This document shows positions 2,615 through 30,238 of a stretch of 64,000 nucleotides of DNA, in pieces. A program made the translations under genes and the position numbers. This DNA comes from Planctomycetota bacterium (lineage in GTDB: Bacteria > Planctomycetota > Brocadiia > Brocadiales > Brocadiaceae): the NCBI GenBank assembly GCA_016188675.1, contig JACPHJ010000064.1:1-64000 (forward strand), given 5' to 3'. Positions within the stretch are counted from its first letter, which is position 1. Each line of letters opens with the position of its first letter. Below the pieces are notes generated by a model. The model searched no databases and had not been told where the DNA came from. It was given only the letters and a program-made list of their open reading frames with translations.

Positions 2615-4162
2615 TTAATATGTGGCGGTTGTTTTTTCCGGTTTATTTTCTTCCTTCACTTCTTTCGGCTTGTTGTTATTTTCTTTTTTTACCAGTATAG
2701 CCACAGTACGATTGCTCTTTGTTAAATATTTTTTTGCGACCCGCATCACGTCATCCGCAGTCACCAGCGCTATCTTGTCCATGAAGGTATTAATGTATCG
2801 CCAGTCTGAAAGTACCTCAAAATGCCCTATTTCATTCGCAAGCCCGGAGGCAGAATTCAGGTCGCGGATAAAATCCGCCTCTAACTGGTTCTTGATCTTC
2901 TGCAGTTCCCAATCAGACGGCGGGGTATTTTTAAGCTTTTCAATTTCTTCATAAATGGCAGACTCTACCTCCGCTACCGTATGCGGCGCACGAGGCGCCG
3001 AAATAAATGTAAAGGTATCGGGATACTTCCCTATTTGATCATAGGCATGAGCCATGACGGCAATCCGCTTTTCCTCAATCAAAGTTTTATACAGCCTGGA
3101 GGTTCGGCCGTCAGAAAGGAGAGAGCTCAACACATCCAGGGCATACAAGTCCGGATGTCCTATTTCCGGGATATGGTATGAAATTGCAATATAGGGATTC
3201 GATTCGAATTCGATCTCGACGCGACGTTCCCCTTTCTGTTCTGGTTCTATGGTTTTAACCCGGGGCGGCGCTGATTGGTTTGAGATATCGCCAAAGTACT
3301 GCTCGACGAGTTTTATCATGTCGGCAGGATTAAAATCCCCCACGGCTACTATTACAGCGTTGTTGGGTGCATAGTACCTCTTAAAATATTCTGCGGTTTC
3401 AGCCTTGGTGATATTCTGCACATCGGATCGCCACCCAATGGTCGGCCAACGGTACGGGTGCGCTATGAAGGTTACTGCATTCAACTGCTCAACTAGCAGG
3501 CCAAAAGGATTGTTCTCTGTTCTGAGCCGCCGCTCTTCCATAACAACGTCACGCTCAGAATAAAATTCCCTGAGCACAAGATTCTTCATCCTGTCAGATT
3601 CCAGAAATGCCCACAATTCCAGCTTATTTACAGGCAGATCACAGAAGTAGAATGTGCCGTCGTTAGAAGTTGCGGCATTAAGGCCGGAACCTCCGTGCCG
3701 TAAATATAACGAAAATACCTCGTCTTTCACTATTAATTCCCTGAGTTTCTTCCTCACCTCTTCCAATTCCTTTTCGAGAGACGCAATCTTTTTCTTGTCG
3801 GCGGCGTCTCCCATATTTTTCTCTGCAGAGATTTTCGTAACTAGCTCGTCTTCCCTATCGAGCAAGGGTTTCTCTGCATTGTAATCCTTTGTCCCAAAAA
3901 TCTTCGTTCCCTTGAACATCATGTGTTCAAAGAGGTGAGAAACTCCCGTAATTCCCGGCCGTTCATCCACTGAACCTACCTTATAATTAATCCGAAGACA
4001 CACAATAGGTACGTCGTGCTTTTCCAGCATAAGTAATTTTAAGCCGTTTTTGAGCACATACTCTTTTACATCGAGCTTCAGGGGGTCTGCAAATAGACCG
4101 CTAGTAAAAAACAAAAACAATGTTATGAGAGAAAGAATTGATATCGCTGCCTTTTTTTTCAT
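2615..4162 (-). CDS. M16-family zinc metallopeptidase, catalytic subunit, exported
   Basis: A 515-residue exported peptidase. The zinc motif HLFEH is intact at residues 76-80, followed by the MMFKG box typical of bacterial processing-peptidase-like enzymes. A signal peptide (ISILSLITLFLFFTSGLFA) begins right after the start. The ATG at 4162 is chosen because AGGAGT lies nine bases upstream; ATGs at 4171 and 4180 are less well placed. A charged helical insertion of about 60 residues (LDREDELVTKISAEKN onward) follows the active site, and the tail is Lys/Glu-rich. Together with the neighbouring subunit it should degrade peptides in the periplasm. The gene is divergent from the TlpA-like gene across a 0.4-kb spacer. 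Confidence 0.9.
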   Translation of the reverse strand: MKKKAAISILSLITLFLFFTSGLFADPLKLDVKEYVLKNGLKLLMLEKHDVPIVCLRINYKVGSVDERPGITGVSHLFEHMMFKGTKIFGTKDYNAEKPLLDREDELVTKISAEKNMGDAADKKKIASLEKELEEVRKKLRELIVKDEVFSLYLRHGGSGLNAATSNDGTFYFCDLPVNKLELWAFLESDRMKNLVLREFYSERDVVMEERRLRTENNPFGLLVEQLNAVTFIAHPYRWPTIGWRSDVQNITKAETAEYFKRYYAPNNAVIVAVGDFNPADMIKLVEQYFGDISNQSAPPRVKTIEPEQKGERRVEIEFESNPYIAISYHIPEIGHPDLYALDVLSSLLSDGRTSRLYKTLIEEKRIAVMAHAYDQIGKYPDTFTFISAPRAPHTVAEVESAIYEEIEKLKNTPPSDWELQKIKNQLEADFIRDLNSASGLANEIGHFEVLSDWRYINTFMDKIALVTADDVMRVAKKYLTKSNRTVAILVKKENNNKPKEVKEENKPEKTTATY

Positions 4163-15241: not shown

Positions 15242-16975
15242 TCATTGGGTTTTTTTGAATTTGCCTTTAAACCCTTCTGTCATGTCTATCGCTATTTTAC
15301 CATCCTTTTCTTCAGACGCAATCATGGCATCCACGTTGGGAATCCTTTTGACAAGTTCTAAGCCTTTTTCATGCCCTAACACAAAGACGATGGTTGACAG
15401 CGCATCAACCTCCGTACCCGTGGGGGCAACAATCGTTGTTGCAATGGTGCCGCTTATCGGCCTCCCCGTCCGAGGGTTTATGATGTGGGAATACCTCTTC
15501 CCATTAAATTCAAAGAACCGCTCATAATCCCCCGATGTAGCTGTAGCCTCGTCTTTAAGTTCCAGATAACCAAGGATTTCATCCCTATTCCGCGGGTGCT
15601 GTACACCGATCTTCCACGCATTTTTGCCCGGAGGCACGCCCAGCACATAGATATTTCCACCGAGATTAATGCAGGCATTATTGATACCAAATTTCCTGAT
15701 AATTTCCAATGCCTTATCTACGGCATATCCCTTCCCTATGGCGCCCAGCTCGATTTGGGTTTGAGTATTTTTAAAAAACACGGTCGCTGGCTTTTTAGGA
15801 TCGTTACTTTTATTTATTACAAGGTTCTTATACGAGACAGCGGGTAAAACCTTTTCAATTTCTTTATCAGGCGGGACGTGCCCTTTTTCACGAAAAAATC
15901 CCCACAGCGCAACAATTGGAGACACGGTAATATCAAATGCGCCTCCGCTCAATTCGCTGTAATATTGCGATCGTTCGATTACATCAAGGAGTTCTCCAAT
16001 GCATGGCACAGGCGATTTTCCCGCTTTTTTATTCAGACGTGAGAGTTCGCTGTCTTTTTTGTAATTGCTCATAATGCGGTCCATACGTTCAATTTCATCC
16101 AGAGACTCTTCGATGGCCTTTCCTGCGGTTTTTTCATCATTCGAGTATATGGACACCTCGGCAAAGGTGCCCATAATCATGCGGGTTTGCTTGATAAGTT
16201 TTAGTTCAGAAATAGGTTCTTTCCCCCCCCTATCCTCCCCTTGCAAAGGGGGGGACAAAGGGGGGGTATTTTCTTTAGTCTTTGCATTTTGAGATTTGCT
16301 TGTTTCTTCAATAGCATTATCTTTTGCTGGCGTTACCACATGGTTGTTTGCCACCGTGAGGTCGTTTACATTCCTCTTCCCGCTGAGATAATATTCATTA
16401 ATAATCCCGAGTACCTTCCTGACGCCCGCACACATACACTGCACGGACATGGTAGCCCCGGTAATATTGATGATATCTTTATTGGTCCTGATTGGATTTT
16501 TAAGGGATTTCCCCATGAACTGATAGAGAAACCGCTTTTTGGCAATCTCTCCGCCACGGCTTTCACGATACACAAGGACGGCTACATTATTAATTTTTCC
16601 ATCCGGGCTTACTCCCACAACAAAGGTAAACGGGTGGAACTTCCCGATTTCCTCCGTAATAATTGCATATCCCTGGATAGTGCCCTCCTTCTTTCCAATG
16701 TAAACCCTGAATCCATCTTCATAAAGTCTTCTGCTCAGCAGCTTCTCAAAACTCTTTTTTTCCTCAGCAGTCATTACAAATTCATCGGTGACAATCTCGT
16801 CGCATTCGGGAAAGACAAGGGCAAGCGCCTGCTCTTCTGTTAAGTACGTCTGGAGTTGAAAATTGTCGGTCGGCTCCGCCTCCGTTTGAGCCTTTGCCGT
16901 ATCCGGCATAAATGCGCCGGATACAAGTAACAAAGGAAGTAATAAACTGGTGATTAGTATATGTTTAATAGTCAT
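15242..16975 (-). CDS. FMN_bind / ApbE (flavin transferase) fusion protein, exported
   Basis: 577 residues. A signal peptide (ILITSLLLPLLLVSGAFM) leads an FMN_bind domain at about 45-200, with the flavinylation motif TGAT near residue 172, as in RnfG/NqrC. A full ApbE-type FAD:protein FMN transferase domain runs from about 245 to 565, with SELSGGAFDITVSP, GAIGKGYAVDKAL, and the metal-site segment TEVDALSTIVFVLG. ApbE attaches FMN to the Thr of such motifs, so this polypeptide could flavinylate itself or other periplasmic redox proteins. The linker contains TPPLSPPLQGEDRGG, which is a translated intergenic repeat. It probably acts in the periplasm or the paryphoplasm. Confidence 0.9.
   Translation of the reverse strand: MTIKHILITSLLLPLLLVSGAFMPDTAKAQTEAEPTDNFQLQTYLTEEQALALVFPECDEIVTDEFVMTAEEKKSFEKLLSRRLYEDGFRVYIGKKEGTIQGYAIITEEIGKFHPFTFVVGVSPDGKINNVAVLVYRESRGGEIAKKRFLYQFMGKSLKNPIRTNKDIINITGATMSVQCMCAGVRKVLGIINEYYLSGKRNVNDLTVANNHVVTPAKDNAIEETSKSQNAKTKENTPPLSPPLQGEDRGGKEPISELKLIKQTRMIMGTFAEVSIYSNDEKTAGKAIEESLDEIERMDRIMSNYKKDSELSRLNKKAGKSPVPCIGELLDVIERSQYYSELSGGAFDITVSPIVALWGFFREKGHVPPDKEIEKVLPAVSYKNLVINKSNDPKKPATVFFKNTQTQIELGAIGKGYAVDKALEIIRKFGINNACINLGGNIYVLGVPPGKNAWKIGVQHPRNRDEILGYLELKDEATATSGDYERFFEFNGKRYSHIINPRTGRPISGTIATTIVAPTGTEVDALSTIVFVLGHEKGLELVKRIPNVDAMIASEEKDGKIAIDMTEGFKGKFKKTQ
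16217..16272. repeat. Palindromic repeat inserted in frame in the FMN_bind-ApbE gene
   Basis: C-run and G-run arms (CCCCCCCCTATCCTCCCC and GGGGGGGACAAAGGGGG) encode the PPLSPPLQGEDRGG linker. The same type of element occurs between genes elsewhere in the window. Confidence 0.8.
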
Positions 16976-18665: not shown

Positions 18666-20957
18666 TCAAGGCGTTAAAGCTACTTCCACCTTGTGTGATT
18701 CGTAGTCATTTTCGTCAAGGGAAATGACGTATCCGTTATTTGCCGCAAATTCCAGAGTGCCTTTTGGAAGGAAACGATAGATAAGCCTGGCCGTAATGGT
18801 GATTTCGCTCGCATCGTTTGTTTGAAACTCATAATGGCTCGTATCCGTCTGGTTCGCCTTGATGCGCGTATCATACAACTCTTCAACGGCAAATGCATAT
18901 AAAATATCATTAAAAAACGGATCCAAGCTTTCATTATCCACTAACATTTTATTGTGTTTCATGAAAATCTTTCCCGGTTTTCCTGCGTAATCCCCTTTGC
19001 CTTCGTAGTAACCATCAGGAAAATTCCCGCCGGGTTTGTCTATGGTCTGATCGTTGAGCTGGGTAAGGGTAGTCCCCGACTGAGTGGCTTCAATGAGAAG
19101 AACAACGTTTCGCTGCGTTACACCGGATGGATAGGAATGACCCGTATGAGAATTCGTAACGTTCACATCAAAGCTCAAGACACCGTTTTCTACCTTTGTA
19201 TTGTCAACAGCCAGGTCTACAGCCCACTCCAGATACCTCTTTTTTTCTCCCGGCGACAAATTCTGATTGGTGCCTTCAAAACGATGCGGATAGATTGTCC
19301 TTGAATCCCGTTTTGTAGCGTATTTTCTCTTGTCTTTAGAAATCATATAAAAGGGATCTGTAATCTCTTCATAATCTGCAATTGATTTACCCGTCGTTGT
19401 GTCTGATGGTGGATCTTTCATGTGGCAGTCCTGACATTGCAAGACCTTTCCAGCATAGTTATTCACAGGGTAATCATCTTCAAGCCCGCTGTATCCGCTA
19501 AAACGCCATTCACGGTAGGTATCTTCGCTCCAGAGGATGCGCTCTATTGTTTCGCCCGTCGGCTGGTCATTCTCGTCCACAGGTTGCAAAGAGAGCTTTC
19601 TGGCATCCTGATGGCAAGGCGAACATACCTCACTTTTTTTAAATTGCGGGGTGTAGGATGCCTGCATATTTTTATATATAACGTCATCAAGCGGCCCAAA
19701 CATGACCTTGCCTGTAGTGGAAGATTTGAGCAAGGGGTCTGGACGCAGGAGATTTACCTTATAATTTACCCCAGGTTCAGTCCAATATTCTTCTTCTGCG
19801 CGGATTTCATGCATCTTATGGCAGAAATCGCAATGAACGCCTTGTTTGTCTATAGCGGAGAGTTTGTCCTCATCACTCATTACACCTGCCCTCATATCCC
19901 ACAAAGGGGTCACACCGTCATCCTGCACCTTTGATGCATAGGACGGGGAGTGACAATCAGCGCAGTCGTGGAGGTGTCCAGCATCACCAAGTATCTTGTA
20001 CCGATTCCCCTCCGAGTCTTCAAATATCTTTCCCTTGTCCCCGACAAATTCAGGATTAATATCGTCAAAGATAGACGGGTCATTAAAGTTTGCCCTGTCG
20101 CCCGTCACATACCATGCAGTATAGAGGAGAAAGACAAGCTGATTAATAGGATTAACAGCAGCATTGGCCATATCGCTGTCATTCCAGTCATTATAAATAT
20201 TACTGTGGCATTTCTTGCAGGTTTTCGAGGAGGTATATTCGTACGACGGATGGTCTTCTTCCGGAATAGAGGCAAGGACAATACTGGCAGTATTTGCCTG
20301 TCCTAACGTTACTTTTGCGCCACCATTTTTGTAACCTTCCTTACCGGCGGCAATCACGACAATCTGTCCAGAAATGCCCTCATAATCCAAAGAAAAAGCC
20401 CCGACTCCGTCCGAAAGCACAAAGTTATCTTTTTTTTCGGGATAATAACTCTCGTCCTCTGAGCTAATATCCGCAACCCCCTGAATTCGCACGCGTGCAT
20501 CAGCGAGAGATTGTTTAGTCTTGCCAGAGGTTTCTTCGTAAACGGTTCCCGTTAATTGCCATTCCCCGGAATACCCAATAACAAAGCTGGCCTTTCTGAT
20601 AATTTTATCCTTATCTTTTTTCCCTTGCAGGTTTAAAAGGACAGTTATCTTATCGCCAATTCCGTAACTTTCCAGGGAAGCAGAGCCTGTAAAGGCATTC
20701 AGATCATCATCCCAAGACAATGTATGCCTGGTTTTCTTTTTATTCTTGCCGGATAGTAAGGTAAAGAATGACTTCTCAATCTCTCTATAATCAAGGATGT
20801 TCTGTGCTATCTGGACGTACATGGTATCGGTATTAAGAAAAGCCTTGTCATCCGTTGAATAATCGGCATTTCTGCTTAGACCGAAGGACACACCGGCAAA
20901 AGCGGTTTTACATAGCGGAAGCGATATTATAAGTAACAGAATAAATATTTTTTTCAT
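18666..20957 (-). CDS. Exported pentaheme cytochrome c with a carboxypeptidase-regulatory-like domain
   Basis: 763 residues from the ATG at 20957, which opens the signal peptide (KKIFILLLIISLPLCKTAFA); a GTG at 21011 is less likely. Residues about 135-230 form a CarboxypepD_reg-like beta domain (ADARVRIQGVADISSEDE). Five CxxCH heme sites follow: CKKCH 247-251, CADCH 332-336, CDFCH 376-380, CSPCH 445-449, CQDCH 508-512. A C-terminal beta region has NSHTGHSYPSG, like the His-Pro-Gly motif after the hemes in other exported multiheme proteins. It is probably an extracytoplasmic electron-transfer or surface protein. The same beta domain occurs in two neighbours. Confidence 0.92.
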   Translation of the reverse strand: MKKIFILLLIISLPLCKTAFAGVSFGLSRNADYSTDDKAFLNTDTMYVQIAQNILDYREIEKSFFTLLSGKNKKKTRHTLSWDDDLNAFTGSASLESYGIGDKITVLLNLQGKKDKDKIIRKASFVIGYSGEWQLTGTVYEETSGKTKQSLADARVRIQGVADISSEDESYYPEKKDNFVLSDGVGAFSLDYEGISGQIVVIAAGKEGYKNGGAKVTLGQANTASIVLASIPEEDHPSYEYTSSKTCKKCHSNIYNDWNDSDMANAAVNPINQLVFLLYTAWYVTGDRANFNDPSIFDDINPEFVGDKGKIFEDSEGNRYKILGDAGHLHDCADCHSPSYASKVQDDGVTPLWDMRAGVMSDEDKLSAIDKQGVHCDFCHKMHEIRAEEEYWTEPGVNYKVNLLRPDPLLKSSTTGKVMFGPLDDVIYKNMQASYTPQFKKSEVCSPCHQDARKLSLQPVDENDQPTGETIERILWSEDTYREWRFSGYSGLEDDYPVNNYAGKVLQCQDCHMKDPPSDTTTGKSIADYEEITDPFYMISKDKRKYATKRDSRTIYPHRFEGTNQNLSPGEKKRYLEWAVDLAVDNTKVENGVLSFDVNVTNSHTGHSYPSGVTQRNVVLLIEATQSGTTLTQLNDQTIDKPGGNFPDGYYEGKGDYAGKPGKIFMKHNKMLVDNESLDPFFNDILYAFAVEELYDTRIKANQTDTSHYEFQTNDASEITITARLIYRFLPKGTLEFAANNGYVISLDENDYESHKVEVALTP

Positions 20958-21131
20958 GGCTAAATAATTAAAGTATATAAATTTCAAACTTTCCGTGAAA
21001 CAGAGTTTCACTGACAGGCTTGTTCACAAACAATGTTTGGGAACAAGCCGTGAAAATATAATGCGTACAAATCAAGCAGTTCTCCGGTCTCCAAGATAAT
21101 TTTTGCCGATATCTACTGCCTGGTTATATTC

Positions 21132-21356: not shown

Positions 21357-21674
21357 TTAATTTAAGGAAAGCAGCAATCCTACCTTTTTCAATTGCTGCT
21401 GACCTTCCTTCATCTTTTGATAAATAGAAGCCCATGACCTTTTTGCATAGATGATCGGAATTCCCCTATTTTCGGCGGACTTCTTTATTTTGTAAGCCAA
21501 GTTATGGTTCACAAAGTCGTACAGCATGATGATAAAGTCCATCGTTTCAGGAATCCCGTCACGGATCTTTTGCCCGCTTCTCCCAGTTACGTGCCGAACC
21601 TCGTTCACACCAAGTCTATCAAGTTCTTTTGGAATACTTCCTAAATGGTCGCCCCCTACAATAAGTACAGACAT
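21357..21674 (-). CDS. DUF2325 protein
   Basis: 105 residues matching the DUF2325 family: opening SVLIVGGDHLGSIPKEL, central VRHVTGRSGQK, then DFIIMLYDFVNHNLAYKIKK and IPIIYAKRSW. The fold looks like a small Rossmann-like domain. Members are often near iron or metal genes, but no activity is established that I can name. AAAGGAGGG precedes the ATG. A Fur-box-like 7-1-7 repeat lies about 38 bp upstream of the start. It is downstream of, but separated by a palindrome from, the diheme cytochrome gene. Confidence 0.82.
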   Translation of the reverse strand: MSVLIVGGDHLGSIPKELDRLGVNEVRHVTGRSGQKIRDGIPETMDFIIMLYDFVNHNLAYKIKKSAENRGIPIIYAKRSWASIYQKMKEGQQQLKKVGLLLSLN

Positions 21675-21711
21675 TTTTTCACCCTCCTTTAAAGGTTCCT
21701 GGTATTGTATA

Positions 21712-21726
21712 TGAGACTCATTCTCA
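21712..21726. promoter_or_regulatory. Fur-box-like operator upstream of the DUF2325 gene
   Basis: TGAGACTCATTCTCA is a 7-1-7 inverted repeat with one mismatch, followed by AATATGATAT. It matches copies at 24447 and 30101. The layout TGA-nAnT-n-AnTn-TCA fits the general Fur 7-1-7 consensus (TGATAATnATTATCA). The regulator assignment is an inference. Confidence 0.6.
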
Positions 21727-21827
21727 ATATGATATTAAAAAAATATAAAATGTCAACACTATTTAGAAAATTTTTTTACCTACGTACTAAAAGCCTTCAC
21801 AAAAGTTTTCACCAATACGGTATAATT

Positions 21828-21861
21828 ATGCAGGGGGTAATTCATGAATTACCCCCTGCAT
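21828..21861. terminator. 34-bp perfect palindrome downstream of the diheme cytochrome gene
   Basis: ATGCAGGGGGTAATTCA is followed immediately by its exact reverse complement. It lies 62 bp after the stop of the minus-strand cytochrome gene. There is no T-run, so it may be a repeat acting as an RNA-stabilising stem rather than a classical terminator. A related core AATTCATGAATT lies near 53.97 kb. Confidence 0.55.
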
Positions 21862-21922
21862 GTATATCAAAAACCTATTTTTGGAACTTTCTGCACTGCT
21901 TACAATTCCACTTCATTCATCA

Positions 21923-22972
21923 CTACCCAGCCACTCCTACAGGTGATGCAACCGGTGACGCCGTTGGTATTGGCGTTGGCGTTGATTCGCCACTTCCGCT
22001 TCCGCTCCCCGAGCCGCTGCCACTTCCTTCTCCTTCCGGACATTCACCCGCATCACTCGTGTCGGCCTCGCTTGGGTCTTCACCATTAGGACCTTTTGCG
22101 CCATTGGCAATCCACCGTTCGATCTTTTGTATCTCGTATTCCGTAAAATATGGCCCGCCGAATGGCATTCGATGATCTTTTTCAGCATCTTCCTCGGTAC
22201 TCTGACCACGCAGGCGTTTTATTATCAAGCTATCGGATGGATTTTCCAGATCTATAAGCGCTTCATGCTCAATTCCATCAGCGCCGGAAATTATCCCCTC
22301 CCAGCGCGAGAGATCCATACATGCCTGGGATGGAGAGCGTTCCTTTGACGTGGCATCGTTGTTATTATAGTGACACTGCTTGCAAGGCACACTCCCATTT
22401 ACCGATTCGGTTAATAATGGAAGGACGTCCCGATTAAAGTCGGGTGACGGCGTATCATCTTCCGCCCCTTCTTCGATCCACTTCCTGATTTTGGCAATTT
22501 CTTTTTTCGTAAAGAACGGTCCCCCATACGGCATACGGCCGTCAGTATCTTCCAGGTCGTCTCCCTCTCCTTTCAATCTTTGCAAGAGGAGGCTTTTATC
22601 AGGGTCGTCGGTGTCGATAATGGGCTCAGTTCCTGCATCTGCACCTGCTATGATGTCTTTATATGAGCCCATGGTGAATTCGGCCATGGCATTCTCAGGG
22701 ACACTATTACTTTCTATGGTAAGGCTGGTAAAGTGACATTTAATACAAGGGAAAGATTCCTGTTTACCAACCTTTCTGCTTTTCACAAAAAGGGGCAGAA
22801 TATCATTGGTAAAGCTGATTTTCTTTTTTCCCGAAAATTTAATTTTCATATCTTTCCCTTTTTCTACAGGTTGGCTGCTTGCACTACCGGCATGGATTAG
22901 ACTTGTTGCCAAAAAAACAGAGACAGCAATTCCTGCTGCAATAGAAAAATATTTCTTTTTATTTTTAGCCAT
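21923..22972 (-). CDS. Exported diheme cytochrome c (planctomycete-type) with Ser-Gly tail
   Basis: 349 residues. A signal peptide (SIAAGIAVSVFLATSLIHA) is followed by two tandem copies of a planctomycete cytochrome C-like unit, each with FTNDILPLF or FNRDVLPLL, a heme site (CIKCH 76-80, CKQCH 197-201), a DPDKSLLLQRL-type segment and GRMPYGGPFFTKKEI/MPFGGPYFTEYEI ending in KIRKWIEEGA. The tail is a Gly-Ser dipeptide repeat (about 315-328) followed by a Thr/Pro/Ala stretch. The ATG at 22972 has AAAGGAG five bases upstream; ATG 22987 overlaps the previous stop. It is probably a surface-exposed redox protein co-transcribed with the FEA1-like gene. Confidence 0.88.
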   Translation of the reverse strand: MAKNKKKYFSIAAGIAVSVFLATSLIHAGSASSQPVEKGKDMKIKFSGKKKISFTNDILPLFVKSRKVGKQESFPCIKCHFTSLTIESNSVPENAMAEFTMGSYKDIIAGADAGTEPIIDTDDPDKSLLLQRLKGEGDDLEDTDGRMPYGGPFFTKKEIAKIRKWIEEGAEDDTPSPDFNRDVLPLLTESVNGSVPCKQCHYNNNDATSKERSPSQACMDLSRWEGIISGADGIEHEALIDLENPSDSLIIKRLRGQSTEEDAEKDHRMPFGGPYFTEYEIQKIERWIANGAKGPNGEDPSEADTSDAGECPEGEGSGSGSGSGSGSGESTPTPIPTASPVASPVGVAG

Positions 22973-22986
22973 AACAACTCCTTTCA

Positions 22987-24429
22987 TTAAAGTAATTCAT
23001 TTTCATAACTATCAATGACCGCTGTTATCGTCTGTCGGGCAGTATCGGCATCCGATGTATTCAATTTATCGCTGGCATCACTTAAATCATGGAGGGCATC
23101 CTCCATCTTTTCTTCCTCTGATTCACCCAGGCGTAATTCTAAATCTTCCAAAAATACATTCGAATAGAGCAACGCCTCTTCTGCAAGTATCATGGCATCT
23201 CCTCGGTCACTTTCACTTAAAGCCTCCTCATTCTCCTCTAATTCTCCTTCCACGCGGCCAATAAAGCCCTTGCTCAATTCACTCACAATCGTATCGGCAG
23301 CCACATCGGATAACTCACCGGTTAATTGAGATTTGATGGTTTCGTTGCCTGTGGGATTATTTCCCGAAACAAATTCCTCTATAATCTTATAATAAACTTC
23401 ACCCTCCCTTTGCTCTTCACGAGCCTCTTCTGGATCACTGTCTCTGTTTTCTAAAAGTTCTCCTACTTCCCTAAGCACCGCTATATAAAAGGCTCTGACA
23501 AGGGAGAGTCGGATGACTTGCCGCTGGATTCCAACCGTAATCTCATCCTCACCGGGATTGTTTTTATTCAGGGCTTTCTGTCCCCGGATAAAAGCAACGG
23601 TAATTTGGTCTTCCAGATTGGGATTGCTCCCCGTATCAATATTTGTGCGATCTGCCGTTAGCACCTTATTTTCGCGATCGGCTGTGCCTACCAGCGCCTG
23701 ATAGGCGGCGTATGCATTGTCCCAATAAGTGCTTAGTTCGGAGGTATCGTCCTCATCAAAATCGTCACGGGCATGAGTAATGTTTTCCAAAACGGCCAGA
23801 TAAAAAACCCGCTGAAGTGTCTTATCAATCACCTGTGCAGCCAGTTTCGGCTCGTTGCTATTCTTAATATCCTCGATGGCATCCGTTATATCGCTATCCA
23901 GGGTTAAACTATTCTCTGTGTCCATCTCTTTTACTAAACCCTGCAGTTCTCCTTCATAGGCGGAAGTTATGGCGTCACCATCAATGGGGTCTACTTTCCT
24001 CAGCGTGCCGATTTCGCTATATGCGGAGACTGCCGCATCCATAGTATCCGTGTTATTAGTCTTAGCGTATGCAGAAAAATTTAAAGTAAAATCCTTTTCT
24101 ATTTCCTCGTTGTTCCTGCTGACTGTCAGGGTTTCAGACACTGTCTCAAAACCTACGGATTCAACGGTAAGTATATGTTTGCCCTTTTTCAATTTAGTAA
24201 CTTCGCATGAACCGTCGGAATCAGTCAAAGTGGCCTTTTTCTTTTTCCCTTTGCTTTTGATTTTTATAATAGCATCTTCTATGGCATCACCATTTTCGTC
24301 CGTAACAACACACATAATTGACGCTGCATGAACTGCAGACATGTCCACACCTATCAAATGAGTGCCTAATAATAGGCCTGAAACAATCCCCAGCGGCATA
24401 AATACCTTGTTTAACCAATTCATAGTCAT
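22987..24429 (-). CDS. Exported acidic helical protein: CarboxypepD-reg domain plus FEA1-like repeats
   Basis: 480 residues. A signal peptide is followed by a carboxypeptidase-regulatory-like beta domain at about 36-115 (IMCVVTDENGDAIEDAIIKI). The rest is acidic and helical with an apparent internal repeat: VFYLAVLENITHARDDF...YWDNAYAAYQALVG and later GIQRQVIRLSLVRAFYIAVLREV...YYKIIEEF. This wording resembles the algal Fe-assimilation protein (FEA1, low-iron/high-CO2 periplasmic) family, but I could not test it. The ATG at 24429 has a GAAAGGAA site; an upstream GTG at 24471 would put the operator inside the gene. The Fur-like box at 24447 is immediately upstream, and the diheme gene is directly downstream. 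Confidence 0.75.
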   Translation of the reverse strand: MTMNWLNKVFMPLGIVSGLLLGTHLIGVDMSAVHAASIMCVVTDENGDAIEDAIIKIKSKGKKKKATLTDSDGSCEVTKLKKGKHILTVESVGFETVSETLTVSRNNEEIEKDFTLNFSAYAKTNNTDTMDAAVSAYSEIGTLRKVDPIDGDAITSAYEGELQGLVKEMDTENSLTLDSDITDAIEDIKNSNEPKLAAQVIDKTLQRVFYLAVLENITHARDDFDEDDTSELSTYWDNAYAAYQALVGTADRENKVLTADRTNIDTGSNPNLEDQITVAFIRGQKALNKNNPGEDEITVGIQRQVIRLSLVRAFYIAVLREVGELLENRDSDPEEAREEQREGEVYYKIIEEFVSGNNPTGNETIKSQLTGELSDVAADTIVSELSKGFIGRVEGELEENEEALSESDRGDAMILAEEALLYSNVFLEDLELRLGESEEEKMEDALHDLSDASDKLNTSDADTARQTITAVIDSYENELL

Positions 24430-24446
24430 AAAATTCCTTTCTTCAA

Positions 24447-24461
24447 TTGGACTCAGTCTCA
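24447..24461. promoter_or_regulatory. Fur-box-like operator upstream of the FEA1-like/diheme operon
   Basis: TTGGACTCAGTCTCA: the right arm AGTCTCA is identical to that of the copy at 30101 and the left arm has two mismatches. It lies 18 bp before the ATG at 24429, close to where RNA polymerase would bind, so repression is plausible. Confidence 0.5.
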
Positions 24462-24714
24462 ATAACGTCACAAAATAAAACTATTTTATCTTTCGTGTTC
24501 CTGCAAAAGCAGGAATCCATGCCATTGTTACCACCGACACCGGATTCCCGCTTACATTAGAAAAATAATACAGGATAAATTTTTCACACCTGCAACTGTA
24601 CAACTTTTTTTGCATCAATTACCTCTCTCGTGTAAATTGGTCTGGGTTTTTTAAAACAAAACCCAACGACTTTTTATTGAGTAAGGGGGAAGACTTGAAA
24701 GCAGACTCTCCATT

Positions 24715-24812
24715 TACCCACCCCTAAATCCCCTCCCAGGAGGGGACTTTTTAAATTCCCCTCTTAAGAGTTTTTCAAATTCCCCTCTTGAGAGGGGTAG
24801 GGGTGTTTATTA
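24715..24812. repeat. Dispersed repeats (ACCCACCCCT family) in a gene-free spacer
   Basis: Three C-run/G-run segments (CCCCTCCCAGGAGGGG, CCCCTCTTAAGAG, CCCCTCTTGAGAGGGG) lie in the 435-bp gap between 24430 and 24864. Next to the FEA1-like gene this gap also holds an AT-rich stretch with no readable gene. Confidence 0.7.
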
Positions 24813-24864
24813 ATTTCTTAATTCAAAAAAGATTGAAATTCTGAACATCCAATTACGCTTTAGT

Positions 24865-25290
24865 TTATTTGACTGCACTTCCACTCCCGCTCCCTGAACC
24901 GCTGCCACTCCCGGAGCCGCTGCCAGAGCCGCTCCCGCTTCCTCCCCCTGTTGCCTTTATCTGGATATCGGTTACCTTGTTTTGCCCTGCCTTGAGTTTA
25001 ATATTCTTTTTTGCGCTGGAATAGCCAGACTTCTTGACCGTCAGGATGTATTTACCGGCGCTCAAGTCAGAAAATTCATACTGACCGCTAGTTCCCGTTT
25101 TTCCACTGTCCTTAAATTTCAGTTTTTTGCTTTTCAAGGATACCGTTTCACTTTCAACCGGGCTGCCAGAATCATCTGTTACCGTACCGGAAATACTACC
25201 CGTCGAAGTTTGAGCATAGGCACATGTATGCGAAGATAAATACCCAACTACCACAACAAGACACAACGATAAAAATACATTTTTTAACAT
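24865..25290 (-). CDS. Small exported CarboxypepD-reg protein with Gly-Ser repeat tail
   Basis: 141 residues. A signal peptide (NVFLSLCLVVVVGYLSSHTCAYA) is followed by one carboxypeptidase-regulatory-like beta domain at about 30-112 (GSISGTVTDDSGSPVESETV, YEFSDLSAGKYILTVKKSGY). The C-terminal 25 residues are almost pure Gly-Ser dipeptides. AGGAGG lies five bases before the ATG. The design matches the diheme cytochrome (Ser-Gly tail) and the FEA1-like protein (same beta domain), suggesting a shared surface assembly. The tail could be an O-glycosylation substrate; that is inference. Confidence 0.82.
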   Translation of the reverse strand: MLKNVFLSLCLVVVVGYLSSHTCAYAQTSTGSISGTVTDDSGSPVESETVSLKSKKLKFKDSGKTGTSGQYEFSDLSAGKYILTVKKSGYSSAKKNIKLKAGQNKVTDIQIKATGGGSGSGSGSGSGSGSGSGSGSGSAVK

Positions 25291-25449
25291 CTCAACCTCC
25301 TATATTAAGAAAGTGCAAAAGTTTCAATTATCAATTAACATTTTCGATTTTTAATTTTGCATTGCTAATTTTACAATGCAAATCATGAAATTCTTCTTAG
25401 TTCCAAAATCTAAATCTCAAGTAAATTCAAAATTCCTGTATTTTGTTTT

Positions 25450-27036
25450 TTACCTCCATTCAAAACTGTATAAAGCCAACCAGTTGTAATCGGCAACGGC
25501 ATATCGGTTCCTTTCAAATACAGCCAGCCTCCTGAGTCTATCTTTGTATTTATGCCTTTCAAAAAGCTTTGACGAAATAAGGATATTTTTTGGTTTATTT
25601 TTCAAGCGTTCAAGATCTTTTATTACCTTACTCATAGTTGACACAAAATAAACATGGCTACTTTTCTTATCACACCACTGAGGTGCGTAATACTGGAATA
25701 AACGCCAATCATTTAAACAATAAAATTTGGTATCATTCTTATCATAATTTCTTGTTACAAAGTTTATCGTGGAGACGGACGGCGGCTCTTCATTCCTGTT
25801 AACAGAAACAATCTTCATCGAATCAATGGCCAACGTAATAATAAAGACAGACACCACGGCAAGGAACAACCGGGAACCCTGCTCCTTGTCTTTCAAATAG
25901 TGAGTAAACCCATGCATTAACCCTGCACTGATAATAATAAGCAGGAATGGGGCAAGCACCATAATCTGCCGGATGGCATCCTGTATGAACGCAATCCATA
26001 GAAAATAAGGAATAAAAAAGGCCAATAAAAACCTGGTTTTGAAATTCCATTTTTCATGTATAAAAAAGCTCACGAAAGCAAGCGCTATTATTATCGTTGG
26101 AACAATCCTCAAAAAGGGGGCATCTGTCCACCATGTGCCTAAACTATGTGCGCTCAGGTTATGAAAAATATCGGAAAAACGTACACTGTAATCGTCGGTC
26201 GTAAGGATAGAGTTTCCTTCTCTATGAAAGTGATAATCAGCATGGCTCAGGAATTTCTTGTAACATTTATAAGGGGTAAAACGAACAAGCAAGTAACCCA
26301 ACCATGCGACCACACCAACGGTCAGACCCAAGAATCCCCACATCGCAACCTTCTTACGGCGTATTTTTTTAGTTATTTGATAAGCAGCATAAGCCATAGT
26401 GGGTATTAAGGCGAGGTATGTAACCCGAACGCCTAATCCCAATCCTAACAATACACCACCCAATGCAAAATACACCAACGGGGTTTTATACTTATCATTT
26501 TCATAATCCAAGCAGCTCTTACTTGCCCCATGAACACCTTCTACTGCCATGTAGAAAAATAAGATGGAAGTAATGACAAAAAACAAGCCAAATGCATCCG
26601 AGAGGGGCTTTTCTGCCTGCAACCAAACCTGAGGATTAACTATGTATAACATAGAAGCGAGGATAGCAGCTTCTTTAGAAAACACACGTCTTGCCAGTTC
26701 ATAAAGCGGAAATACAGCAAGGCTGCTGAACAAAACACCAGAAAGGACCAATGCCTGTATATCAGACCCAAATATTTTGTACCAAATCCAGCTTACAAAC
26801 ATATATACCGGATAACCTGGGAAATGCGGCTGATCGTGCAAAATATCATAACCTTTTGATAAACCAAAGGCGAAGTTGACACTATCCCATTCATCGATGT
26901 ATTTGCCGAAATATAATAATCTGGAAATGAGGCAAACACAAACAGCAGCTATCGGGATTATATAACCCTGCAAGGACACTGTTTTCGTCTGACAACGTGT
27001 TTTTGCTGATTCATTGTAATTGACTGTTGCTTGCAT
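25450..27036 (-). CDS. GT-C (GT39/ArnT-like) glycosyltransferase, integral membrane
   Basis: 528 residues with about ten membrane helices. The first periplasmic loop has the acidic motif YIDEWDSVNFAFGL and then HDQPHFPGYPVYMF, the arrangement of PMT_2-type enzymes that transfer a sugar from a polyprenyl-phosphate donor. The C-terminal 130 residues are soluble. The acceptor is unknown: it could be a lipid or a Ser/Thr-rich exported protein. It lies 16 bp from the UGM-like flavoprotein gene, so the two are probably co-transcribed, and 0.16 kb from the Ser-Gly-tailed protein. Confidence 0.8.
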   Translation of the reverse strand: MQATVNYNESAKTRCQTKTVSLQGYIIPIAAVCVCLISRLLYFGKYIDEWDSVNFAFGLSKGYDILHDQPHFPGYPVYMFVSWIWYKIFGSDIQALVLSGVLFSSLAVFPLYELARRVFSKEAAILASMLYIVNPQVWLQAEKPLSDAFGLFFVITSILFFYMAVEGVHGASKSCLDYENDKYKTPLVYFALGGVLLGLGLGVRVTYLALIPTMAYAAYQITKKIRRKKVAMWGFLGLTVGVVAWLGYLLVRFTPYKCYKKFLSHADYHFHREGNSILTTDDYSVRFSDIFHNLSAHSLGTWWTDAPFLRIVPTIIIALAFVSFFIHEKWNFKTRFLLAFFIPYFLWIAFIQDAIRQIMVLAPFLLIIISAGLMHGFTHYLKDKEQGSRLFLAVVSVFIITLAIDSMKIVSVNRNEEPPSVSTINFVTRNYDKNDTKFYCLNDWRLFQYYAPQWCDKKSSHVYFVSTMSKVIKDLERLKNKPKNILISSKLFERHKYKDRLRRLAVFERNRYAVADYNWLALYSFEWR

Positions 27037-27051
27037 AATAATATATTCGGT

Positions 27052-28482
27052 TTAGGCAGTGACAGAGGTAACCTCTATTAATTCTTTTTCGGAGCGCATT
27101 AATTGAACGTCCTCTTTCTTACATAAATTATCCAACATGAGCGTCTGTGCGGCGGCAATCCCCATCTCCATAGACGTATCCATAAAGATGTATCGGAATG
27201 TCCCCTGTCTGCCGCAAGTAATCAAGTTCTCATAGCAATCCAGAAAATCAAAGAGCTTCTGGCGGTGCATTGAATAATCAAGACTGTAAACAGGATAGCC
27301 ATGGGTCACGCTCGTTGTAAAATAATCTATGACCTTGTCCCGGATATCAAGCCCGAGTTCTTTCAAATCGGCAAGACAACGGTTCAATAAAATTTCCTTT
27401 GAACAACTCCAGGTTTCGTCGTTCTCGTTGCATGGTATTTCCAACATAACAGACGTCTTTCCTTCCGGCGCACTGAAAGGGCTTCGACGTTTTGGTTCCT
27501 GGATACGCGTCATGATATGTTTCCCTTCAGAAACATACATCCACGTGTTATCACTAATATTAGGGAGATCGACCAGGATATTTAAAAATCTCACCGCACG
27601 GAATTTTAGTACAGATGCATGATTTATAATGTTCTTTGTCAGATGCCCCGGAAATGCCTTTATGAGGTCTGGCAGAGGAATTGTAGAAATAATAGCATCG
27701 CAATCAATCGTCCTGGTTACACCACGCTGGACGTAAGATATACTCTCAATGGAAGTATTGTTTACCTTTATCCAGGAAACCGTCGCATTCAAGACGACCT
27801 TACCGCCCATTTTGGAGATTTCTTCGCTCATAATGTCGAACATCTGGCCTATGCCTTTTTTGGGGTAAAAATATCCCTTGGCATACGTTCGCGGCGTACC
27901 TTTCTTTAACTTGAGGAGCCGGAAAAGAACGTCTTTAAGATTCAATAATGAAATTCTCTGAGATGCCCAATCGGATGAAATGAATTTTGGAGATACGCCC
28001 CATAATTTTTCCGTATATGGACCAAAGAATAAATTATAAAGAGTTCTTCCAAAACGGTTGACAATCCAATCCTCAAAAGAAACGTCTTTTTTCCGGAAGA
28101 CAATTTTGGTGAAAACGGCGATTAAGTACGATGTAAACGCCTTCATGTTTGTCCAAATGTCCATCTTCAGAAATATATCCCTGGCAGACAGAGGATACTC
28201 AAAGGTCTTGCCATTCAAGAGGATGACGCTCTTTCTATGAGAGGTCAGGAGTTCATCACCCATGAGTTTACATACATTATCTACGAGTTCTTTGTTTTTT
28301 GAAATAAAGCGGTGACCTCCGAGGTCAAAACGATAACCCTTGAATTCATTAGTGATACACAAACCACCCACTTTGGATTCTTTTTCGATTACGGTAATAT
28401 CATATCCGTACTTAGATAATTCCCATGCTGCCGACAGACCACAAGGCCCACCGCCAAGTACAAGTATCTTCTTCTTCTTCAA
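27052..28482 (-). CDS. FAD-dependent protein of the UDP-galactopyranose mutase / amine-oxidase superfamily
   Basis: 476 residues. The dinucleotide motif ILVLGGGPCGLSAAWELSKY and the acidic FAD-ribose position (VIEKESKVGGLC) are at the N-terminus, followed by FDLGGHRFISKNKEL. The C-terminus has a second FAD-contact region (LITCGRQGTFRYIFMDTSME). This pattern occurs in UGM-like sugar mutases and protoporphyrinogen-oxidase-like proteins. Its position between a GT-C glycosyltransferase and a porin favours sugar metabolism. Start: ATG at 28482. It is cytosolic or peripherally membrane-bound. Confidence 0.78.
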   Translation of the reverse strand: MKKKKILVLGGGPCGLSAAWELSKYGYDITVIEKESKVGGLCITNEFKGYRFDLGGHRFISKNKELVDNVCKLMGDELLTSHRKSVILLNGKTFEYPLSARDIFLKMDIWTNMKAFTSYLIAVFTKIVFRKKDVSFEDWIVNRFGRTLYNLFFGPYTEKLWGVSPKFISSDWASQRISLLNLKDVLFRLLKLKKGTPRTYAKGYFYPKKGIGQMFDIMSEEISKMGGKVVLNATVSWIKVNNTSIESISYVQRGVTRTIDCDAIISTIPLPDLIKAFPGHLTKNIINHASVLKFRAVRFLNILVDLPNISDNTWMYVSEGKHIMTRIQEPKRRSPFSAPEGKTSVMLEIPCNENDETWSCSKEILLNRCLADLKELGLDIRDKVIDYFTTSVTHGYPVYSLDYSMHRQKLFDFLDCYENLITCGRQGTFRYIFMDTSMEMGIAAAQTLMLDNLCKKEDVQLMRSEKELIEVTSVTA

Positions 28483-28494
28483 TTTCAGTACTCC

Positions 28495-29958
28495 TTAAAA
28501 ATACGTTGCTACAGAAAACAAAAAGGCGTTATTGGATATGCCCGGCATATCTTTTTCTTCCATATTAATTTGATAATCTAATTTAAAGACCGTGTCTTCG
28601 GTATACCGGTAATTCAAACCCGGTGTAATTCTATTTCTCAACCAATGAACACTTTCAAAATCATCATCCCTGCCAGCCGTTTGCACCTGATCCCACCGTA
28701 AAACACCCGTAAAGGTTGAGTTTTCGGTAAAAATGCGGGGATTCCAGCTTTTTAGTACGGATGGCATAAAGTGGTATCTGGCTTCCAGGTAATATCCCCA
28801 CATATCATCTGTAATACCGGAATCTTTAGCCAATTCGTTCGTATCTATAAAGGCATAGGCGCCTTCACCTACTAATTCAAACGGACCTTTTTGATAGGTA
28901 AGATCCAACGCTGAAATGGTCAGTTGATTTTCATTATTTTCATCATACTGGCTTGTATAAGCAGACCCGCCAAATTCTAAACCAATAAATGGACTAAAGG
29001 CAACACGACCTACTACACCAGGACTTTCATTATAATTATCGTTGGCAAATCCACCCCTGGAATTCCTTAACCCGTTTACCTCTCCAAAACGCGAGGTACC
29101 GTCGGCGTCTAAACCGCGAAACGCACCATTGGTAGCGTAAATCTCATAGTCAAGTTTGCTTAATTCCGATGGATAAAGGGTGCCAAAAAAGCCCATGCCT
29201 AAATCCGTAAGGGTGGTAGGAATAATCAACTGGTCTACCAGCGGACGGTCTGTGAAATCCTGCAAGGGAGAATCGTGCACTAAATTAAGCTTTCCCAGAG
29301 GCGTAAGAATATATCCTCCCCTCCAATTGATCCAATCGGTTAATAAAAAATCTATGGTGCCAAATTCCAGGATTACCTCACCATCTCTGCCTCCGCCGAC
29401 ACCGCCAAACTCAAATTCTATCTCTGTTGCAAGTTTTACACGGTCCGATATATCTGAGTATATAAAGGGTATAAATCTATTTTGAACAAAACCCTGCATA
29501 TCAGCCTCATTTTCCGTCGACCTGAATGCGAAATCCATATAACCACCCACATAGGTATTCCTGCCAAATCTCCTCAGAAATGGTTTTGTATAGACACCGC
29601 CAAAGGATGGTGCAAGTTTCTTTTCTGCCAGCTCACTCCCCTTCTTGGCTAAATAAGGAACTTCTTCCGCACCCTCTTTAGCCGCTGCTTCTTTAATGGT
29701 TTGAGGTTGCGCTGAAGCTTCTTCCGCGGCAATCTTTACTTCTTTTTTTTGTAACTCCTCCTGTAACGATGCAATATCTTTCTCTTTTCGAGCATCCTTT
29801 TCAATTTGCTGCTTGAGTAAATCTTTTATTTCTTTCAATTCATTTTCAAGCATTTCCACCTTGCTTTTTAAAGTATCTGTTTCCGGCGATTGTGCAAAGA
29901 CATCAGAAGCAAGAAATAACATAGCAAAAGAAATTACAAAAAAAACCAAGTAACGCAT
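28495..29958 (-). CDS. Coiled-coil outer-membrane porin (OprO/OprP-like)
   Basis: 487 residues. A signal peptide (YLVFFVISFAMLFLASDVFA) precedes a coiled coil at about 25-85 (LKSKVEMLENELKEIKDLL with a Lys/Glu heptad pattern), then a beta-barrel of roughly 370 residues with aromatic alternation. It ends in SVATYF, the terminal-Phe signature of outer-membrane barrels. The coiled coil suggests a trimer that reaches toward the cell wall. The operator at 30101 is 143 bp upstream, so it belongs to the same probable Fur regulon. Specificity is unknown; OprO/P relatives pass phosphate or other small anions. Confidence 0.85.
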   Translation of the reverse strand: MRYLVFFVISFAMLFLASDVFAQSPETDTLKSKVEMLENELKEIKDLLKQQIEKDARKEKDIASLQEELQKKEVKIAAEEASAQPQTIKEAAAKEGAEEVPYLAKKGSELAEKKLAPSFGGVYTKPFLRRFGRNTYVGGYMDFAFRSTENEADMQGFVQNRFIPFIYSDISDRVKLATEIEFEFGGVGGGRDGEVILEFGTIDFLLTDWINWRGGYILTPLGKLNLVHDSPLQDFTDRPLVDQLIIPTTLTDLGMGFFGTLYPSELSKLDYEIYATNGAFRGLDADGTSRFGEVNGLRNSRGGFANDNYNESPGVVGRVAFSPFIGLEFGGSAYTSQYDENNENQLTISALDLTYQKGPFELVGEGAYAFIDTNELAKDSGITDDMWGYYLEARYHFMPSVLKSWNPRIFTENSTFTGVLRWDQVQTAGRDDDFESVHWLRNRITPGLNYRYTEDTVFKLDYQINMEEKDMPGISNNAFLFSVATYF

Positions 29959-30100
29959 GATTAGCCCCCCCTTAGAGTAAATTAGTTATCAATATCAGTT
30001 CAGAATGACATTTTGCATTCAACTTATCGCCTAAATTATACCATGAACTTGCTTCCGGGTCCCTGATCTTGGATTCTTTTATCATATATTTAATCAGTAA

Positions 30101-30115
30101 TGAGACTCAGTCTCA
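30101..30115. promoter_or_regulatory. Fur-box-like operator upstream of the porin gene
   Basis: TGAGACTCAGTCTCA is a perfect 7-1-7 inverted repeat, followed by ATATCATAAAT. The near-identical copies at 21712 and 24447 all lie just upstream of envelope or metal-related genes on the minus strand. Confidence 0.65.
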
Positions 30116-30238
30116 ATATCATAAATAAATTTAATAAATTGTCAAGTATTATTTTAAAAATAATTATGAACAGATTAAAATGATTAAATTTCGCAGGGAT
30201 ATGTGGATATGCGTAGAGTTTAAAAAAGACAAACAAAA

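Follow-up and report, generated by a model that had tools for sequence, protein, structure and literature searches.

A predicted Fur operator shared by envelope-protein genes and feoB in a Brocadiaceae-type planctomycete

Introduction

In Proteobacterial Fur regulons the Fur box (TGATAATNATTATCA, with a 7-1-7 layout) is a palindrome around a single central base that lies over the start region of the promoter, and its targets include feoAB and genes for outer-membrane proteins. The locus analysed here shares with these regulons the form and position of the operator, both kinds of target and a Fur orthologue, but its half-site is TGAGACT instead of TGATAAT, and where the Proteobacterial targets are mainly TonB receptors and siderophore genes, those found here are a Brocadiales porin operon, a gene pair for an acidic and a dihaem protein, and a DUF2325 gene. 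The kind of system is familiar, while the box (TGAGACT) and the members are specific to the lineage.

Three other described systems resemble parts of it. At the feoAB1 promoter of Magnetospirillum, Fur recognizes an operator that likewise does without the classic GATAAT hexamers, through DNA contacts made by Lys15, Tyr56 and Arg57 (PMC4506495); the equivalent Lys, Tyr and Arg are conserved in the Brocadiales Fur, but the Magnetospirillum half-site is TGCAAAT and that complex has a crystal structure, whereas the operator described here is a prediction from sequence. In E. coli the porins OmpC and OmpF form with FeoB a route for ferrous iron, which becomes important once uptake of the ferric form is blocked (PMC7315122), and a similar pairing of porin and FeoB in ferrous entry is proposed here, except that the E. 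coli link between porin and feo runs via EnvZ/OmpR, while here it would be a single shared Fur operator, and that the Brocadiales porin matches no Pfam family. The stand-alone DUF2325 protein Cj1384c of Campylobacter (PMC9426514) is, like ours, about 105 residues long and under the control of a Fur-family protein (predicted in our case), but it is PerR-controlled and cysteine-rich, whereas the Brocadiaceae protein has zero cysteines. In anammox bacteria, DUF2325 has also been named as a candidate cargo of encapsulins (PMC6934571), which would fit a role in iron handling.

The DNA comes from a Brocadiaceae-type planctomycete of the anammox lineage, a species that would share the anammox physiology of its relatives. 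Anammox bacteria are rich in haem and iron-sulphur enzymes, and to our knowledge little has been established about their iron uptake and its regulation. The operator sequence was not found in the openly readable literature that we searched, and, judged by counts, titles and abstracts, the anammox papers that name a Fur box, Fur or FeoB are few and do so in passing. A defined Brocadiales Fur box, apparently common to Planctomycetota, would allow iron genes to be listed and tested directly; it turns little-studied envelope proteins into candidate parts of iron uptake and brings FeoB under one predicted iron control with a porin, haem proteins, an acidic secreted protein and a small DUF2325 protein. 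Our overall reading, in which we have considerable confidence, is that the palindromes described below are Fur operators of an iron-repressed regulon that comprises feoB, the porin operon, the acidic/dihaem pair and DUF2325 and most likely serves iron uptake.

Results

Three palindromes upstream of minus-strand genes

The window, that is, the whole 64-kb stretch of DNA analysed, belongs to contig 139 of a 3.6-Mb genome assembled in 201 contigs. A sequence-only reading had described three near-identical 7-1-7 palindromes in it, upstream of a DUF2325 gene, of an acidic/dihaem operon and of a porin gene, all on the minus strand. The three 15-mers are present exactly as described, TGAGACTCATTCTCA at 21712-21726, TTGGACTCAGTCTCA at 24447-24461 and TGAGACTCAGTCTCA at 30101-30115, and each of the three lies upstream of the minus-strand genes named, but the actual unit is the 17-bp sequence TTGAGACTNAGTCTCAA (8-1-8), which extends one base beyond the 15-mer on each side. 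The operators and the two promoters recognized next to them are:

21711..21727, strand., operator 1, a Fur-type box (ATGAGACTCATTCTCAA) before the DUF2325 gene; 25.1 bits
24446..24462, strand., operator 2, with one degenerate half, before the acidic/dihaem operon; 16.9 bits
30100..30116, strand., operator 3, ATGAGACTCAGTCTCAA, upstream of the porin-FAD-glycosyltransferase operon; 29.0 bits
21729..21756, minus strand, promoter 1, TTGACA-16-TATCAT, 11/12 matches; ends 1 base before operator 1
30118..30145, minus strand, promoter 3, TTGACA-16-TATGAT, 11/12 matches; ends 1 base before operator 3

With up to 3 mismatches allowed, the window holds 12 matches against 3.98 expected, a number reached by 0 of 100 shuffles. 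Scanning with a matrix trained on 61 sites, all from other genomes, gave operators 3, 1 and 2 as the top three matches of the window (29.0, 25.1 and 16.9 bits), in a test that is not wholly independent, as some of the training sites come from a genome of the same genus (G004), although most are from other genera and families. Only about 0.04 matches of at least 16 bits are expected by chance per 64 kb. The fourth-best match (10.3 bits, at 24133 inside the acidic-protein gene) and a weak palindrome before a multihaem gene (7.6 bits, 20995-21011) score at chance level, and both were dropped as operators.

Promoters 1 and 3 are the two best sigma-70-like candidates among 25 between 20800 and 30400, and they share the same geometry, with the operator starting one base past the -10 hexamer. 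No clear promoter hexamers were found at site 2, where the operator stands 16 bp before an ATG at 24429, directly ahead of the Shine-Dalgarno-like AAGGAA. The GTG start chosen by the ORF caller (24471, for an ORF of 494 aa) lies upstream of operator 2, which that ORF overlaps; the ATG at 24429 (480 aa) is the likely start of the acidic protein, and use of the GTG is unlikely. Standing just past the -10 box at sites 1 and 3, and before the Shine-Dalgarno sequence at site 2, the operators are arranged as for a repressor.

Genes downstream of the operators

The genes behind the operators, together with a multihaem gene nearby, are the following, all on the minus strand:

21357..21674, minus strand, DUF2325 protein, 105 aa (PF10087, E 1.5e-15)
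22987..24429, minus strand, secreted acidic protein, an N-terminal transthyretin/CarboxypepD_reg-type beta-sandwich (PF13620, E 1.7e-9) followed by a predicted all-helical domain
21923..22987, minus strand, exported dihaem protein whose two CxxCH haem motifs and GSGSG tail are seen in the sequence (CTI-type match 2.5e-7; gene pair with the acidic gene conserved)
28495..29958, minus strand, porin-like outer-membrane protein with an N-terminal coiled coil (coiled-coil matches; orthologues in 22/29 relatives)
27052..28482, minus strand, FAD-dependent amine-oxidase/UDP-galactopyranose-mutase-like protein, 12 bases after the porin gene (own operator in a relative, G024, L142)
25450..27036, minus strand, PMT-type membrane glycosyltransferase (PF13231, E 3e-11)
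24865..25290, minus strand, small secreted transthyretin-like (TTR-like) protein with a GSGSG tail (PF13620, E 1.7e-17; gene order conserved)
18666..20957, minus strand, multihaem cytochrome, a possible regulon member judged by an operator upstream of it in a relative (G014, L122:18179), the palindrome here being the weak one at 20995-21011

The porin-like protein matched no Pfam family, and its structure model was unusable (pLDDT 34). A signal peptide and a C-terminal aromatic residue, both judged by eye, suggest that it may form a beta barrel. The acidic gene overlaps the dihaem gene that follows it by 1 base. Its product had been called FEA1-like, an assignment that we rejected: Pfam gave no FEA1 match at E 10 for 7 orthologues, the PDB sequence search returned matches confined to the N-terminal beta domain, and the helical domain is without a match in either. 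The model of this protein is predicted helical with low confidence (pLDDT 51), and a fold search with it found no match.

The dihaem and TTR-like proteins carry long Gly-Ser repeats near both C-termini, encoded by similar repetitive DNA. Operon membership of the TTR-like gene is uncertain in this genome. The stretch between the TTR-like gene and the acidic gene (24495-24830) holds short inverted repeats rich in GC, GAGGGGACTTTTTAAATTCCCCTCTT and similar sequences, with the look of mobile-repeat debris.

An operator before feoB in the same genome

The rest of the genome was scanned by pattern and not by matrix. A degenerate Fur-like 15-mer, TGAKAMTNAKTMTCA, matched exactly at operators 1 and 3 and at one further position, C38:11383, which is intergenic and lies 47-49 bp upstream of the FeoB gene (FeoB_N, E 4.9e-51), so that the operator is tied to iron independently of the window. 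A weak candidate site (C97:3053) stands 37 bp before a gene for a small secreted protein.

The genome-wide motif search advised by the sequence-only reading had a divided outcome. Loose matches behave randomly: the 15-mer with 2 mismatches occurs 17 times against 14 in the reversed control, which is chance level, and a degenerate 17-mer occurs 27 times against 9 per strand, mostly within genes; the well-scoring intergenic matches are non-random. The near-control rate of the loose 15-mer is what would be expected if the palindromes were chance occurrences or copies of a dispersed repeat, but the matrix scores, the promoter positions and the conservation in orthologous promoters with diverged flanks all oppose this explanation, which we consider next to impossible and which the comparative sequence data already refute.

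The FeoB gene itself (L078:1564-3831) is split by a stop into frames of 428 and 325 aa, where relatives have a single protein of 755-762 aa; the split either stems from an error in the assembly or is genuine.

Conservation across Brocadiales and Planctomycetota

In ten Brocadiales genomes, TTGAGACTNAGTCTCAA occurs at two or fewer mismatches 51 times, against 10 for reversed controls. The porin orthologues come from Candidatus Brocadia, Jettenia, other Brocadiaceae MAGs and some genomes labelled only Planctomycetota. Nearly all of their promoters contain the palindrome, also in other families of the order, and the operator precedes the porin in most Brocadiales genomes that have one. It also precedes feoB in our genome and five relatives (G000, G004, G014, G016, G024 and G026), feoA-feoB in G024, DUF2325 in six genomes (G009, G011, G014, G015, G016 and G017), the acidic protein in G004 and G024, the FAD-PMT genes in G024, and a multicopper-oxidase-like protein in G011, G016 and G009; genes for heavy-metal-domain proteins are found behind it as well. 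The gene order porin-FAD-PMT-TTR-acidic-dihaem is kept in named relatives (L084, L086, L087, L089, L090 and L097), each of which carries an operator in front of the porin gene and another in front of the acidic gene. With the DUF2325 sites, all three operators of the window therefore have positional counterparts in relatives.

TonB receptors, which are encoded in these genomes, were rejected as main targets: the operator is present at one of about 30 TonB-receptor loci in the set (in G016), and since most of these promoters are devoid of it, the motif is not one of envelope genes in general.

Over 149 Planctomycetota genomes, the pattern at one or fewer mismatches gave 64 sites, of which 56 lie outside the family, and the reversed control gave 1. 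Among the 64, the operator precedes feoA-feoB (L239, L240), feoB (L231, L243), an FTR1 iron permease (L224), a periplasmic metal/siderophore-type binding protein (L235), ApbE (L244) and a Porin_5 porin (L232); no profile match was found between the latter and the porin of the window. In G170 (L230) it precedes fur itself, between promoter and Shine-Dalgarno sequence, an arrangement that was not found within Brocadiales. Some of the remaining matches are intragenic or stand before genes without an obvious iron role.

Two relatives' loci deserve mention. In G024 (L140, C68:10000-25000) one operon behind an exact operator combines a divergent paralogue of Fur with two HMA-type proteins and a DtxR-FeoA protein, and it adjoins a 742-aa HMA-type protein and feoA-feoB. 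In G014 (L126, C9:9900-16000) an operator-like match at 3017 lies amid overlapping ORFs with repeated ARGAT/NPRPARG peptides, as translation of a CRISPR array typically gives, and this match is therefore probably due to chance.

The candidate regulators

Two Fur-family proteins are encoded in the genome (on C9 and at C116:77284). The first (C9:681-1130; PF01475, E 1e-32) has Fur proteins as its nearest solved relatives, and its orthologue is present in 28/29 genomes, although in two of the 28 the match is partial or weaker. The recognition helix, SKATIYRTL, shows almost no variation, the ATIYR motif within it is invariant, and across 27 aligned Fur rows both the Tyr-Arg of this motif and the Lys of L-K-x-T (Arg in one row) are conserved, the residues equivalent to the Magnetospirillum contacts.

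The second candidate is a DtxR-FeoA fusion (C38:14126), the product of the last gene in the feoB operon, which could bind the operator as an autoregulated, iron- or manganese-dependent repressor, with the Fur targets elsewhere. It is the sole DtxR-family protein of the genome, it belongs to an operon that has the operator, and it is present in 26/29 relatives. However, its DNA-binding domain is its least conserved part (mean 0.44 versus 0.84-0.87 in the metal-binding core), PF01325 falls below cut-off in our genome's copy and is absent from the copies of two relatives, so that the intact, conserved DNA-binding domain of a DtxR/IdeR regulator is lacking, and the operator before fur in G170 also counts against it. 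The helices of this domain vary freely while the operator does not, and since the operator is fixed across the order while the recognition domain drifts, Fur is preferred as the regulator and we regard control by the fusion as unlikely. The protein (L078:4244-4894) and its orthologues keep the metal-binding core with its CPHG-IPxGxCC motif, and it may have turned from a repressor into an iron sensor or Feo accessory.

The third candidate is the PerR-like second Fur-family protein (C116:77284), under which the genes would form a peroxide or redox-stress regulon. Apart from its presence in the genome, it is favoured by the Campylobacter DUF2325 gene Cj1384c, a PerR target with strong induction under oxidative light stress (PMC9426514), but the operator targets are feoA, feoB, FTR1 and porins and not catalase or peroxidases, and in G010 and G027 the operator stands at the porin although the single Fur-family match is the Fur orthologue; the operator is thus not restricted to genomes with a PerR-like protein, and we hold this candidate to be even less probable than the fusion.

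For Fur itself, the genome encodes the protein, the operators have the 7-1-7 layout, they overlap the promoters at sites 1 and 3, and they precede iron-uptake genes. The Fur-type box and the link to iron put forward in the sequence-only reading are in this way supported by the feoB operators, the conservation in orthologous promoters, the feoA, feoB, FTR1 and fur contexts, and the conserved Fur. Against it stand a half-site, TGAGACT, whose letters 4 and 6 are in both halves not those of the textbook TGATAAT, fur genes without the operator in Brocadiales, a DtxR-FeoA gene in the feoB operon, and loose matches that are mostly intragenic. On balance, the three palindromes are very probably Fur binding sites as predicted, and we infer Fur binding, repression by iron and roles of the envelope proteins in iron uptake.

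Proposed function of the regulon

As long as Fe(II) in the cytoplasm is sufficient, Fur-Fe dimers would occupy TTGAGACTNAGTCTCAA, which follows directly on the -10 box and spans the expected start of transcription, and would block the three promoters of the window together with the feoB promoter elsewhere in the genome. Iron shortage would lift this block and lead to joint production of the inner-membrane FeoB pump, the porin with the FAD enzyme and the glycosyltransferase, the acidic protein with its dihaem partner, and the DUF2325 protein. FeoB is an importer of Fe(II); the porin would admit small iron species, the acidic/dihaem pair would bind or reduce iron at the surface, where the dihaem partner could reduce Fe(III), and FeoB would import the resulting iron. 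The most likely use is uptake of ferrous, or surface-reduced ferric, iron through the porin. A more specific proposal, which we offer tentatively and think rather doubtful, is a dedicated and undescribed Brocadiales system of surface iron capture, in which the porin would be glycosylated by its operon partner, the acidic helical and dihaem proteins would bind and reduce Fe(III) and pass Fe(II) to FeoB, and the system would largely replace siderophore receptors in the regulon.

Genes for ApbE and an FMN-binding protein are also present nearby in the window (15242-16975), and ApbE is encoded behind the operator in a distant planctomycete (L244).
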